In this document: positions 15,953 to 39,033 of the stretch, in pieces
How positions within the stretch are numbered: the first letter of the stretch is position 1
How the letters are laid out: each line of letters starts with the position of its first letter
Assembly (NCBI GenBank): GCA_902774185.1
Contig: CACYHE010000026.1
Span: 1-43,867 of the forward strand
Direction of reading: 5' to 3'
Source: an uncultured Bacteroidales bacterium
GTDB lineage: Bacteria; Bacteroidota; Bacteroidia; Bacteroidales; Paludibacteraceae
DNA length: 43,867 nt
The notes under the pieces: generated by a model
What the model saw: the letters and a program-made list of their open reading frames with translations, nothing else
Databases searched by the model: none
What the model was told of the DNA's origin: nothing
Translations under genes and position numbers: made by a program

Positions 15953-18889
15953 ATGATTATGAAACGAATATTTTTGACAGCTCTTCTTGGTTGCGTCATG
16001 ACGATGCAGGTCTTCGCTGTTCAAGACGAAGAGTTTGCAGTTCTCTTGCAAAATGCACAGCAGGGCGATACAGCAGCGCAAAACAAGGTCGGCTACATGT
16101 ATGTCAAAGGAAAGGGAGTTGAGCAGAATTATGAGCAAGCCTTCTATTGGTATCGCAAAGCGGCAGAACAAGGGCATGCTCGCTCTATGTATTACATAGC
16201 GTATATGTACGACGAAGGTAAGGGGGTACCTCAAGATAAGGTACAAGCTTTTCAATGGTACAAAAAAGCGGCCGAACTCGGTGATGCAGATTCTCAGTAC
16301 TGGACAGCTGCCATGTATGAGGTCGGCACGGGAGTGGAGCAAAATATAGAGCAGGCTTTCTATTGGTATAAAAAGGGAGCAGAACAAGGCGAACAATGGT
16401 GCCAATATAGAGTCGGGCTTTTTTATGCAAAGGGGAAAGGTGTTCCTCAGGACTATGCACAAGCGATGTCTTGGTATCGCAAAGCGGCAGAACAAGGGCA
16501 TGCTGGCGCTCAAAACAAATTGGGCTCATTGTATCATAATGCGCAAGGTGTAGAACGGGATTATAAGCAGGCATTGTATTGGTACGAAAAGGCAGCAGCA
16601 CAAGAAGATAAGTATGCTTGTAACAATATAGGTGTTTTGTATGCATATGGTTTGGGGGTGACGCAAGATTTCTCACAAGCGGTTTATTGGTATCGCAAAG
16701 CGGCAGAACAAGGGCATGCTGACGCTCAAAACTCATTGGGCACATTGTATCATAATGCGCAAGGTGTAGAACGGGATTATAAGCAGGCATTGTATTGGTA
16801 CGAAAAGGCAGCAGCACAAGAAAATAAGTATGCTTGTGACAATATAGGTATTTTGTATGAATCTGGTTTGGGTGTGACGCAAGACTATGCACAAGCGATG
16901 TCTTGGTATCGCAAGTCCGCAGATTTAGGTTATTCGAGAGGTCAATACGATGTGGGAAGATTATATTCCAATGGAACTGGTGTGGCAAAAGATTTCACAC
17001 AAGCGGTTTATTGGTATCGCAAAGCGGCAGAACAAGGGTATGCTGCAGCGCAAAATAGTATAGGCGTCAAGTATCATAATGGAGAGGGTGTCGCTCAGGA
17101 CTATAAGCAGGCATTGTATTGGTATTATAAAGCAGCGGAGCAAGGCAATACGAGTGCGTGCAATAATATAGGAATCTTATATGAGTATGGGCTTGGTGTA
17201 AAAAAGAATTGTCCTGTGGCGCTCTATTGGTATAAACGAGCGATAGACGGCGGGTATGCTAAATCCGACACCAACTACGACAAGCTCATCTCTCAAGGAT
17301 ACAAACCGGCAACAGAAGATCCGAATGCCCCGAAACTGCCGCCGTTGTTGGTGATGCAACCAAACTCACTTACCTTTGTAGATGCTTCCGGTAACAATCG
17401 AATTGATGCAGGGGAGGAGTGTTCTATCCGCTTCACTATTAAGAATAATGGTAAGGGTATGGCTCTCAATTGTGAGGCACGGGTTAAGATGTCCGGAACC
17501 ACCAGTGGCGTCACGGTAAAAAACAGCAAACTCCCATCGATTGCTCCGGGCAAAACGCAAGAGGTTTCTATCCCTGTTACCGCTAATACCGATACCAAAA
17601 ACGGACAGTTGACATTCTCCATTGAGGTGTACGAACCTTCCGGTTGGGGAATAGCTCCGTTTGACCTTGCCGTTGAGACTAAAATTTTCGATTCTCCCTA
17701 TCTGCAGGTAGTCGATTATGCCGTTAATTCACCTATCGGAAAAATCCAGAAAATGGTACCGTTTACGCTTACCTTCAATTTGCAAAATACCAAATATGGC
17801 AATGCGGAGAATGTCAAGGTAAAAGTGATTTTACCGGATGACGTATATATCATGGATGGCAGCATCGAGCAGTCTTTCCCGCTTATCAAATCCGGTGAGG
17901 CCAAATCGATCAAACTCACATTAGCTGCCAATAATAACTATTCAACAACGGACATACCTATCGTGATAGATGTGAAGGAGCGTTACGGCAAATACGCAGA
18001 GAATAAAAAACTCAATATAGCCCTCAATCAATCAGCAGCAGTCAGCATCAACATCGCTGCCAAGGATGAACCGCAAGAGGAGCGGAAAGAGATACAGAAA
18101 GCGATGCTGACGAGTGAAGTGGATCGGAATATCCCTATTACGGGTGCCACGAATCCGAATACCTTTGTGCTGATCATCGCCAATGAACATTACCTGCAGG
18201 TAGCAGGTGTGCCGTACGCCCTCAATGACGGAAACATCTTCCGTGAATACTGCATCAAGACGCTTGGCGTGAGTGAGAAACATATCAAGTATTTTGCGGA
18301 CGCGACGGGTAACCAGATCAAGTCCGGCGTTAACTGGTTGGCGAACCTGACCGAGGTGTTTGACAATCCGCAGATCATCGTCTATTATGCCGGACACGGA
18401 ATCCCTGACGAAGCCAGCAAGTCGGCGTACCTGTTACCGGTGGACGGTAACGGTTCGGATATCTCGACGGGCTATAAGTTGGATGACCTGTATGCAACCT
18501 TGGGCAGCATGCCGGCAGCACAGATCACAGTGTTTATGGATGCATGCTTCTCCGGTTCCAAACGCGAACAGGGTATGTTAGCTTCCGCACGGGGTGTAGC
18601 ACTCAAAGCAAAAGCCGGTATCCCGCAAGGAAACATGGTGGTCTTCTCTGCTGCGACAGGTGACGAGACCGCTTATCCGAATAAGGAGCAACAGCACGGT
18701 TTGTTCACCTATTATCTGCTCAAGAAATTGCAAGAGACCAAAGGTGATGTAGCCCTCAAAGATTTAGGTGCATACCTCACCAAACAAGTCAGTCAGCAGT
18801 CCCTCATCATCAACGACAAACGGCAGACCCCGACCGTCACTCCATCCGCCGCAGTAGGCGCAGAATGGCAAAATTGGAAGTTGAAATAA
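15953..18889 (+). CDS. Secreted Sel1-repeat protein with C-terminal caspase-like protease
   Basis: The protein has 978 residues (ATG 15953; ATG 15959 is equally possible) and a signal peptide ending near FAVQ. Residues about 30-440 hold eleven or so Sel1 repeats of 36 residues (A-x-x-W-Y-x-K-A-A-E-Q-G pattern). Then come two beta-sandwich units (about 455-570 and 575-690) of CARDB type (AGEECSIRFTIKNNGKG; VPFTLTFNLQNTK). Residues about 735-978 form a peptidase C14 (caspase/metacaspase) domain with the catalytic His in YYAGHG (H815) and Cys in DACFSG (C865), both intact. The C-terminus shows no T9SS module. It is likely a periplasmic or surface protease in which the Sel1 solenoid binds a partner. 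Cleavage after Arg/Lys, as in metacaspases, is inferred only. Confidence 0.85.
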   Translation: MIMKRIFLTALLGCVMTMQVFAVQDEEFAVLLQNAQQGDTAAQNKVGYMYVKGKGVEQNYEQAFYWYRKAAEQGHARSMYYIAYMYDEGKGVPQDKVQAFQWYKKAAELGDADSQYWTAAMYEVGTGVEQNIEQAFYWYKKGAEQGEQWCQYRVGLFYAKGKGVPQDYAQAMSWYRKAAEQGHAGAQNKLGSLYHNAQGVERDYKQALYWYEKAAAQEDKYACNNIGVLYAYGLGVTQDFSQAVYWYRKAAEQGHADAQNSLGTLYHNAQGVERDYKQALYWYEKAAAQENKYACDNIGILYESGLGVTQDYAQAMSWYRKSADLGYSRGQYDVGRLYSNGTGVAKDFTQAVYWYRKAAEQGYAAAQNSIGVKYHNGEGVAQDYKQALYWYYKAAEQGNTSACNNIGILYEYGLGVKKNCPVALYWYKRAIDGGYAKSDTNYDKLISQGYKPATEDPNAPKLPPLLVMQPNSLTFVDASGNNRIDAGEECSIRFTIKNNGKGMALNCEARVKMSGTTSGVTVKNSKLPSIAPGKTQEVSIPVTANTDTKNGQLTFSIEVYEPSGWGIAPFDLAVETKIFDSPYLQVVDYAVNSPIGKIQKMVPFTLTFNLQNTKYGNAENVKVKVILPDDVYIMDGSIEQSFPLIKSGEAKSIKLTLAANNNYSTTDIPIVIDVKERYGKYAENKKLNIALNQSAAVSINIAAKDEPQEERKEIQKAMLTSEVDRNIPITGATNPNTFVLIIANEHYLQVAGVPYALNDGNIFREYCIKTLGVSEKHIKYFADATGNQIKSGVNWLANLTEVFDNPQIIVYYAGHGIPDEASKSAYLLPVDGNGSDISTGYKLDDLYATLGSMPAAQITVFMDACFSGSKREQGMLASARGVALKAKAGIPQGNMVVFSAATGDETAYPNKEQQHGLFTYYLLKKLQETKGDVALKDLGAYLTKQVSQQSLIINDKRQTPTVTPSAAVGAEWQNWKLK
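16471..16902 (+). repeat. 216-bp tandem duplication inside the Sel1 region
   Basis: 16471-16686 and 16687-16902 are near-identical, each covering two 36-residue Sel1 units; differences are scattered single bases. The identity at DNA level, beyond what the protein needs, shows a recent duplication or conversion, and repeat number may vary between strains. Confidence 0.8.
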
Positions 18890-36705: not shown

Positions 36706-39033
36706 ATGAAAAAACTATTGCTTATAGACGCTTACGCGATGATTTTTCGTGCGTATTATGCTTTTATACGTGCTCCGCGTATGAACAGTAAGGGAGAGAA
36801 TACTTCGGCTATCTTCGGTTTTTGTGTCACCTTGGAAGACTTGCTCAAGAAGATCAATCCGACGCATGTAGGAGTGGCTTTTGATCCTGCCGGAGGAACT
36901 TTCCGTCATGAGGCGTATGAGCAATACAAAGCGCAGAGGCCGGAGACACCGGAAGATATCCGTAAAGCTGTGCCAGTCATCAAGCAGCTTCTTGAGGCGA
37001 TGAATATCCCGGTAATGGAAGTACCCGGTTTTGAGGCGGATGATGTGATCGGAACCCTTTCCGTGCAAGGAGAACAAGCCGGATTTGAGGTCTATATGGC
37101 AACGCCGGATAAGGATTACGGTCAGTTGGTAAGCGACCATGTGTTCATGTATCGACCGCGTCATACGGGCGGGTTTGAGTTGATGGGGCCTAAAGAAGTG
37201 TGTGAGAAATACGGACTGCAACGCAAGGAGCAGGTTATTGATCTGCTGGGCCTCATGGGTGATGCAAGTGATAATATCCCGGGGTGCAAAGGAGTAGGGG
37301 AGAAGACCGCAGTAGCATTGCTGGAACAGTTCGGTTCAATTGATAACATGTTAGCGCATACGGATGAGATCAAAGGCGCGTTGCGAAGCAAAGTGGAGAA
37401 TCAGGTGGAAGAAATTAAGTTCTCCCGTTTCCTCGCTACGATACGTACCGATGTGCCGATTGCATTGGACGAGAACCTGTTGGCAAAGAAAGAACCGAAC
37501 TTCGAACAACTGACGGCTTTGTATCAGGAGTTGGAGTTTAACACCTTGCTGCGAAAACTACCTCAGCAAGTTCAGAATAATCCGATTATTCCGAATACGC
37601 CGAGTGCACCGAAAAAGTCCAAACAAAGTGATCCTGCCCAGCTCGATCTGTTTGGTTTTGGCGAAGAAGAACCAATAGCTAACAGCCAAGAGCCAATAGC
37701 CACATTTGATACCATCGAAAACCGTCTTTGTCAATACCTGTTGAATCCGGAGGTGGCATTTAATCCGTATAAAGAGCCGGACTGGAATGCACTTAAAGCG
37801 GATGCTGACTTATGGAATCTGTATCATGAAGTAGAACTGCCGTTAGTGGAAGTGTTGCGAGAGATGGAAGCGGCGGGAGTGCGTATTGATGTGGATAAAC
37901 TGAAGAAAGCGGAGATCAGTCTGACGGAGGAACTGAACGCTCTGGAGCAGAAGATATACGAATTGGCACAGGAGAATTTTAATATCAATAGTCCGAAACA
38001 GGTAGGTGAGTTATTATTTGACAAACTCAAATTGGACAGCAAAGCGAAAAAGTCCAAGACAGGGCAGTACTCCACGTCCGAAGAGGTGCTCATGACGCTC
38101 AAAGAGAGACATGCTATTGTGGGGTTGATTTTGGATTATCGGGAACTGAAAAAATTGATCACTACCTATATTTCCGCTTTGCCAGGTTATATAGCAGAGG
38201 ATGGTAAGATCCATACGACTTACAATCAGACCGTGACAGCAACGGGACGTCTAAGCAGTTCGAATCCGAACCTACAGAACTTACCGATCCGTTCCGAACG
38301 GGGCAAATTGATTCGTGAGGCGGTGATACCGGATGAAGGATGCCTCTTCCTTAGTGCCGACTATAGTCAGATTGAGTTACGTCTTATGGCGCATTTCAGT
38401 CAGGATGAGCATATGTTGGCGGCTTTCCGTTCCGGACAGGATATCCATGCGGCTACTGCTGCCCGTATCTATGGTAAACCCATCGAACAGATCACCAAGG
38501 ATGAACGTCGTAAAGCGAAGACGGGCAATTTCGGTATCATCTACGGCATCTCGGCATTCGGTTTGGCGCAGCAACTCGATTGCAGTCGTACCGAAGCGAA
38601 GCAACTGATAGATGATTATTTTGCTGCATTCCCGAGAGTGATTTCTTATATCGAATCGCAAAAAGAGTTAGCGCGGCAGAAAGGCTACGCCGAGACGCTC
38701 TTCGGACGCAAACGCTATCTGCCGGATATTCATTCGCAGAATGCTACGGTTCGTTCGTTTGCAGAGCGTAATGCCGTCAATGCTCCTATCCAAGGAACGG
38801 CGGCCGATATCATCAAGATGGCGATGGTGAGTATTCATAGAAGGCTGAAGGAAGAGGGGCTGAAGGCGAAGATGATTATGCAGGTTCATGACGAACTAAA
38901 TTTCAATGTGCCTATGAATGAAGTAGATCGCGTGCGTGAGATTGTCGTAAACGAGATGCAGAATGCGGTCCATTTGTCGATTCCGTTAATTGCTGAATGT
39001 GGTGTGGGAGAAAACTGGCTTGAAGCTCATTAA
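36706..39033 (+). CDS. polA: DNA polymerase I lacking the 3'-5' exonuclease domain
   Basis: The protein has 775 residues, against roughly 930-950 in typical Bacteroidetes. The 5' nuclease domain is intact (about 1-290: LLIDAYAMIFRAYYAF, GFEADDVIGTL, DKDYGQLV, LMGDASDNIPGCKGVGEKTA). The polymerase domain is intact: motif A DYSQIELRLMAHFSQD (about 551-566), motif B RRKAKTGNFGIIYGISAFG (about 605) and motif C MQVHDELNF (about 726). Between them, residues about 290-380 have a Lys/Pro/Gln linker (SAPKKSKQSDPAQLDLFGFG), a 7-bp repeat-encoded stretch (322-334), and only the tail of the exonuclease fold (LCQYLLNPEVAFNPY). The DxE and YxxxD motifs for proofreading are missing. So it should fill gaps and remove primers but not proofread. 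Confidence 0.95.
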   Translation: MKKLLLIDAYAMIFRAYYAFIRAPRMNSKGENTSAIFGFCVTLEDLLKKINPTHVGVAFDPAGGTFRHEAYEQYKAQRPETPEDIRKAVPVIKQLLEAMNIPVMEVPGFEADDVIGTLSVQGEQAGFEVYMATPDKDYGQLVSDHVFMYRPRHTGGFELMGPKEVCEKYGLQRKEQVIDLLGLMGDASDNIPGCKGVGEKTAVALLEQFGSIDNMLAHTDEIKGALRSKVENQVEEIKFSRFLATIRTDVPIALDENLLAKKEPNFEQLTALYQELEFNTLLRKLPQQVQNNPIIPNTPSAPKKSKQSDPAQLDLFGFGEEEPIANSQEPIATFDTIENRLCQYLLNPEVAFNPYKEPDWNALKADADLWNLYHEVELPLVEVLREMEAAGVRIDVDKLKKAEISLTEELNALEQKIYELAQENFNINSPKQVGELLFDKLKLDSKAKKSKTGQYSTSEEVLMTLKERHAIVGLILDYRELKKLITTYISALPGYIAEDGKIHTTYNQTVTATGRLSSSNPNLQNLPIRSERGKLIREAVIPDEGCLFLSADYSQIELRLMAHFSQDEHMLAAFRSGQDIHAATAARIYGKPIEQITKDERRKAKTGNFGIIYGISAFGLAQQLDCSRTEAKQLIDDYFAAFPRVISYIESQKELARQKGYAETLFGRKRYLPDIHSQNATVRSFAERNAVNAPIQGTAADIIKMAMVSIHRRLKEEGLKAKMIMQVHDELNFNVPMNEVDRVREIVVNEMQNAVHLSIPLIAECGVGENWLEAH
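37671..37705 (+). repeat. 7-bp tandem array at the missing exonuclease domain of polA
   Basis: Five units ACCAATA, GCTAACA, GCCAAGA, GCCAATA, GCCACAT, in frame with polA, coding PIANSQEPIATF. It lies where the 3'-5' exonuclease domain should begin. Confidence 0.8.

Follow-up and report, generated by a model that had tools for sequence, protein, structure and literature searches.

Can a DNA polymerase I dispense with its proofreading domain altogether, and, if it has done so, what removed the domain? The question is raised by the polA gene of the window, by which we mean the whole stretch of 43,867 nucleotides analysed here, from an uncultured bacterium of the Paludibacteraceae (Bacteroidales). 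In this gene, a short array of heptamer repeats stands where the missing domain should begin (Table 1).

Table 1. Features of the polA gene and its product, with positions in the window.
Feature	Position	Strand	Residues	Evidence
polA, coding for a 775-aa DNA polymerase I that lacks the 3'-5' exonuclease domain	36706..39033	+		Pfam, NCBIfam; single unbroken match in most genus members
5' nuclease (FEN-like) domain	36706..37560	+	1-285	Pfam; aligned to Taq 13-285; AlphaFold2 mostly confident
Disordered linker	37567..37689	+	288-328	AlphaFold2 pLDDT <50
QLDLF, candidate beta-clamp-binding motif	37639..37653	+	312-316	LDLF-type core in 148/148 domain-less genus proteins
Heptamer array (AAnAGCC type), in repeat slot of linker	37667..37702	+		TRF
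DTIENRLCQYLLNPE, conserved exonuclease-domain remnant (FDT..AHYLLQPE segment)	37708..37752	+	335-349 (helix 337-346)	Alignment with exo-active and dead relatives; predicted helix
Polymerase domain with catalytic motifs	37786..39030	+		Pfam, AlphaFold2, structural matches, Taq alignment

Domain content of the window PolA

A preliminary description of this DNA had held that the 5' nuclease and polymerase of the protein are complete and the 3'-5' exonuclease gone, with 150-170 residues missing, and both statements are borne out. Pfam finds 5_3_exonuc_N (PF02739) at residues 3-170, 5_3_exonuc (PF01367) at 174-265 and DNA_pol_A (PF00476) at 397-773, the last with 541 bits, and the protein scores 988 bits against NCBIfam PRK05755, whose cut-off is 720; no 3'-5' exonuclease family of Pfam is matched in it at an E-value of 0.001. 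In 22 of 24 relatives of other families DNA_pol_A_exo1 (PF01612) has a hit within PolA; in the window's genome it matches only a separate protein of 306 aa, not PolA. The extent of the loss can be read directly: between landmarks in the nuclease and the polymerase, the median length is 247 residues for 81 proteins with an active exonuclease and 92 for domain-less ones, so that about 155 residues are gone.

Modelling the structure, a check proposed at the outset, gave the same picture. The AlphaFold2 model (mean pLDDT 88) shows a folded nuclease and a folded polymerase, between them a disordered stretch and then a short helix, and no exonuclease fold. The four structural matches that head its list are to full-length Pol I of Taq and Mycobacterium smegmatis; the Bst and Taq large fragments come next. 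The Taq motifs DYSQIE, RR..KT.NFG..YG and VHDEL align with its polymerase. The helix belongs to a remnant of the exonuclease domain, whose LLNPE or LLHSE is kept in 147 of the 148 domain-less proteins. This remnant and the QLDLF motif, both of which had been overlooked, flank the heptamer array.

Could another exonuclease of the genome have taken over the editing function? The separate PF01612 protein was considered as a compensating acquisition and rejected: related proteins adjoin the same types of neighbouring gene in other families, so this protein is not a gain. In the window's genome, whose assembly is 87% complete, we saw neither another match that would represent a relocated exonuclease domain nor a replacement proofreader for Pol I; it holds one DnaQ-like (PF00929) match and one DnaE match. 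On the favoured reading Pol I no longer edits, and a separate DnaQ-like protein probably still proofreads. It is a fair inference that such a PolA, taken in isolation, would copy DNA with lower fidelity.

Age, spread and stages of the loss

The loss is real and old. Among 358 genomes of the family, 178 belong to the same genus; 171 of these gave a match, and one locus was fetched from each. Setting aside three fragments (L134, L136, L137) and one nuclease-only frame (L135), none of which could be scored, 167 are left, and the domain is absent from 153, dead in 10 and partial in 4. The 153 comprise 152 scored by script and L247 (782 aa, with an altered remnant), and they include some genes that are incomplete yet span the junction (e.g. 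L116, L118-L120, L133); L030 is counted as dead, though it is nearer to partial. An intact DEDDy active site was found, by alignment columns, in none of the 167. The preliminary description had left it to be seen whether relatives also lack the domain, and the answer depends on their distance: within the genus the domain is missing, dead or eroded throughout, whereas the sister genera nearest on the tree (L255, L258, L282, L274) carry an intact DENDYD. The outcome that the preliminary description had named as refuting its proposal, an old loss shared by the relatives, is thereby very nearly reached. The named relatives are assigned to the Paludibacteraceae or the Bacteroidales, and many come from sheep, goat, cattle and deer.

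Beyond the genus, 386 of 393 genomes drawn from the order gave a match, and only three, all from this genus, gave a single match over the whole length; in five more the lone match was too weak to span the protein (its extent seen for G050 only), and the rest had at least two. In a draw of 198 genomes from the phylum, a single match over the whole length came from the window's own genome alone; a second genome also gave a single match, but a weak one. The number of matches is a coarse screen, as five domain-less members of the genus (G007, G079, G106, G193, G198) gave two or three, and both draws were therefore judged on open-frame length as well: outside the genus, among the matches listed, the open frames measure at least 884 aa in the order draw and at least 907 aa in the phylum draw. 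In L131 (from G007) and L130 (from G079), an extra insertion in the polymerase part, near query residue 420, splits the match.

The intermediate stages are themselves visible in the columns of a 277-protein alignment, from which the state of each exonuclease was read. The intact pattern is present in 81 aligned proteins, most of the sister-genus proteins among them. In nine long members of the genus (L028, L029, L051, L124, L126-L129, L132) the middle part survives (of the type GFDLKNDYK, FDTxxAHYLLQPE), and the ExoIII YxxxD stretch is lost; the ExoI acidic pair has also gone from the long members, bar a DxE-like stretch in L126. In L027, L030, L248, L249 and L251 little is left beyond AHYLLQPE..HD..YL, and the remaining members retain only a remnant of the DTIENRL.xYLLNPE type. 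In the AlphaFold2 model of L051, whose exonuclease is dead, the fold is kept only in part, with pLDDT below 50 over residues 287-387 and block means of 68-90 across 391-460.

A quick tree of 117 proteins, built on the nuclease and polymerase columns, arranges these states in order: active genera on the outside, then dead exonucleases (g53, g47 and L126), further dead members of the genus, the eroded group, and finally a domain-less clade of 33 representatives (SH-aLRT 99). The states require 8 changes on this tree against a mean of 53.8 when shuffled. Considering that active, dead, eroded and removed stages are all alive in one family, the order of events can be read. The catalytic DEDDy residues would have been lost in an ancestor common to neighbouring genera; the dead fold would then have eroded; and nearly the whole domain would have been deleted, in what was probably a single event, in an ancestor from which most of the genus descends. 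What this would have left is a short helical remnant at the N-terminus of the polymerase and a predicted disordered tether of about 40 residues, now joining it to the 5' nuclease.

The exonuclease is also dead elsewhere in the order: in Muribaculaceae and their kin, part of the genus g30, L302 and Azobacteroides. As a separate observation, the Bacteroidales Pol I proteins L073, L078, L079, L081, L082, L084-L086, L088-L094, L096-L101 and L104, together with L087 and L302, also have an inactivated exonuclease, with the length of the region mostly kept.

The heptamer array and possible routes to the deletion

The array itself, to which the preliminary description had drawn attention as lying at the scar, is real and sits inside the deletion junction, between the QLDLF motif and the remnant; it is, however, weak (TRF score 37-41, 75-82% matches) and younger than the loss. 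Among the 28 nearest proteins, which share 87-91% identity, this slot of the linker is filled by other cassettes, of PVTGNPSPVT, NDQMVNDQMVN, SPSLxGREGVGLF or NSQEP types, or by no evident one. Such turnover is seen directly across the genus: 61 of 148 domain-less linkers contain short tandem repeats, their periods ranging between 7 and 28 and being a multiple of 7 in 21 linkers, at a threshold (at least 17 of 21 matches at any lag of 4-30) that only 1 of 740 codon-shuffled linkers passed. Heptamer-based arrays are frequent in the genome too: 0.82 Mb of it contain 147 distinct arrays whose period is divisible by 7 (about 1 per 5.6 kb), with many different units, 70 intergenic and 77 in naive open frames. 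Slot sequences match repeats elsewhere in these 0.82 Mb in 25 of 143 cases; among 143 control pieces, taken from the polymerase part, 1 did so. From these matches, the varied cassettes and the frequency of arrays, we infer that the slot receives repeats common in these genomes; lying beside the motif and little constrained, it would keep gaining heptamer and other short repeats. Heptamer repeats exist in other bacteria as well (PMC4679880).

Several single cases may be recorded here. The polA slot of one species (L041, L164) holds 62 bases that are 98% identical to L384:11472-11533, within a 600-aa open frame of the window's genome; lying beside a AAATGGTAAATGA repeat in L384, this stretch looks like a copied insertion. 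The standalone PF01612 exonuclease of the window's genome (L342) has a C-terminal tail with about three copies of the 7-aa repeat KAESIKS, as expected of a heptamer-based array. Elsewhere in the window, positions 16451-17036 contain a 216-bp tandem repeat in 2-3 copies.

What, then, removed the domain? That it was merely lost in assembly or gene calling around the repeats is vanishingly improbable: many named relatives are metagenome-assembled genomes and repeats do break assemblies, yet the domain-less frame with the same remnant recurs in 152 genomes, the domain-less frame in one more, and graded intermediates exist. The proposal that recombination between heptamer arrays, or their expansion, deleted or replaced the domain draws on the place of the array inside the junction, on the abundance of such arrays in the genome, and on the genus g30, in which repeats immediately precede the dead ExoI site in six of seven dead-exonuclease proteins, four of them with a period of 7 or 14 (L263 7, L284 8, L285 14, L286 7, L288 8, L300 7). 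Repeats are thus not always mere passengers, as in g30 they adjoin the dead site, and repeat DNA may have contributed to breaking up the domain in that genus. For the window PolA, however, we hold this route to be very unlikely. In relatives with 87-91% identity the slot has a different repeat or lacks one; the loss is far older than the array; dead and eroded intermediates mark a stepwise path; and linker repeats pass the threshold in only 2 of the 14 dead or eroded members of the genus and in 2 of the 23 further dead relatives (they do so in 7 of 81 active proteins and in 6 of 11 other dead members of the family, all six being the g30 proteins just named). The two cases in the genus, L126 with period 15 and L027, in which the PDLF motif itself is multiplied, are not arrays like that of the window. 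The heptamer array is incidental to the loss of the domain in the window PolA, and the proposed deletion or replacement through it is not supported.

Stepwise decay could still have ended in more than one deletion, an outcome that we consider unlikely, if much less so than a role for the repeats. The full tree joins two domain-less proteins, L044 and L046, to the dead-exonuclease species L127 and L128 (support 98), and a tree of the nuclease half does the same (97). In a tree of the polymerase half, on the other hand, they fall with the domain-less clade and all domain-less rows form one clade (91), and their remnant (DTPENR..YLLNPE..FNPY) is nearly that of the main clade. AU tests gave p 0.08 for a single domain-less clade on the nuclease half and p 0.51 for L044, L046, L127 and L128 together on the polymerase half. 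The polA genes of L044 and L046 are possible mosaics, with a nuclease half like that of dead-exonuclease proteins and a polymerase half like that of domain-less ones; a single deletion spread by intragenic recombination also fits, and is an attractive reading.

A conserved linker motif and known types of Pol I

Conservation in the linker is concentrated elsewhere. An LDLF-type core is present in all 148 distinct domain-less proteins aligned, compared with 3.9% of shuffled linkers, and is the best conserved part of an otherwise variable stretch; 83 of the 148 have the Q form (QLDLF in 82), and 53 of 147 aligned at the motif have T at its first position (TLDLF). The core is found at this place in 78 of 81 exo-active proteins, namely 44 of 46 exo-active members of the family (Q form in 37) and 34 of 35 other exo-active relatives (Q form in 33), so the motif did not arise with the loss of the domain. 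Among dead or eroded members of the genus it is kept in 13 of 14 (Q form in 7), among other dead members of the family in 9 of 11 (Q form in 8), and among other dead relatives in 16 of 23, 7 being without the core (Q form in 7). In the eroded L027 and L251 a clamp-type motif, PDLF, is multiplied to three or four copies in the linker.

What could such a motif do? The QLDLF of the window PolA lies where a clamp-binding QxxLF or QL[SD]LF would be looked for, in an exposed, flexible stretch (pLDDT <50), and it fits the consensus peptide for binding the beta sliding clamp, QL[SD]LF. In 0.82 Mb of the window's genome the exact pattern Q[LM][DSN]LF occurs in three naive open frames: PolA, topoisomerase IV subunit A, where it is C-terminal, and a 254-aa protein in which it is probably there by chance. 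The topoisomerase frame (L402:9223-11895, on contig C22 of this genome) matches PRK12758, DNA gyrase/topoisomerase IV subunit A, and its last residues, ...TQLDLF, form a clamp-type motif. A looser DNA pattern of the motif shows no excess over the whole genome (31 sites against 28 in a reversed control), and a regular-expression search for plain QxxLF in the genome's own DnaE, meant as a positive control, failed to find it.

On this evidence from sequence, the LDLF-type motif, ancestral in the Pol I of these Bacteroidota, most likely docks on the beta sliding clamp, and docking would hold PolA at Okazaki-fragment and repair gaps. Perhaps, instead, the motif is a merely inherited feature of the linker or binds some other partner, and the exo-less enzyme is Taq-like with no clamp role. 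This we judge somewhat unlikely, and the most serious of the alternatives: the motif is already there in exo-active relatives, the TLDLF variants are off consensus, and the looser pattern has no genome-wide excess, whilst its conservation against the shuffled linkers, and its fit to the QxxLF consensus used in PMC12926913, speak for clamp binding.

How does the enzyme compare with known types? Taq, Bacillus and Mycobacterium are examples of Pol I with an inactivated exonuclease, and Taq keeps the exonuclease fold nonetheless. Like these, the window PolA is expected not to proofread, and relatives in its genus such as L051 stand at that very stage, the fold of L051 being partly kept in its AlphaFold2 model; unlike Taq, the window PolA has lost the fold itself. 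From canonical PolA1, with which it shares the 5' nuclease, the polymerase domain and the polymerase motifs, it differs in having a helical remnant in place of the 3'-5' exonuclease domain. According to PMC12926913, the canonical three-domain layout is that of most PolA1, though not of all, and the 5' nuclease is the distinguishing domain, so that the window PolA is still orthologous to PolA1; inactive proofreading domains are described there as common in Pol I, with about half of PolA1 having an inactivated exonuclease. The same paper reports a QxxLF clamp motif in PolA2 (APEX) of Actinobacteria, for which its authors know of no earlier counterpart among bacterial family A polymerases (PMC12926913). 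The resemblance lies in a dead proofreading region and a QxxLF motif in an unstructured stretch; the difference is that PolA2, as presented in that source, lacks the 5' nuclease and keeps a vestigial exonuclease fold, whereas the window PolA has the nuclease and not the fold. In the portions of the literature returned by our search, there was no report of an exo-less Pol I or of a clamp motif in this Pol I.

Taken together, we regard it as likely that the window PolA, from a genus of gut Bacteroidales, is a Pol I tethered to the clamp and devoid of proofreading, produced by stepwise decay of its exonuclease. More tentatively, and with the balance of our own judgement still somewhat against it, Pol I of the Bacteroidota at large might be tethered to the clamp through a QxxLF between nuclease and polymerase, a tether that in one genus may have made the proofreading domain expendable and so given rise to an exo-less, clamp-held Pol I in some 150 species. 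If true, a conserved clamp motif in the ordinary Pol I of Bacteroidota would extend the PolA2 precedent (PMC12926913). Two things become testable now: whether tethering to the clamp makes up for the missing domain, and whether these gut bacteria accumulate more errors at Okazaki and repair patches.
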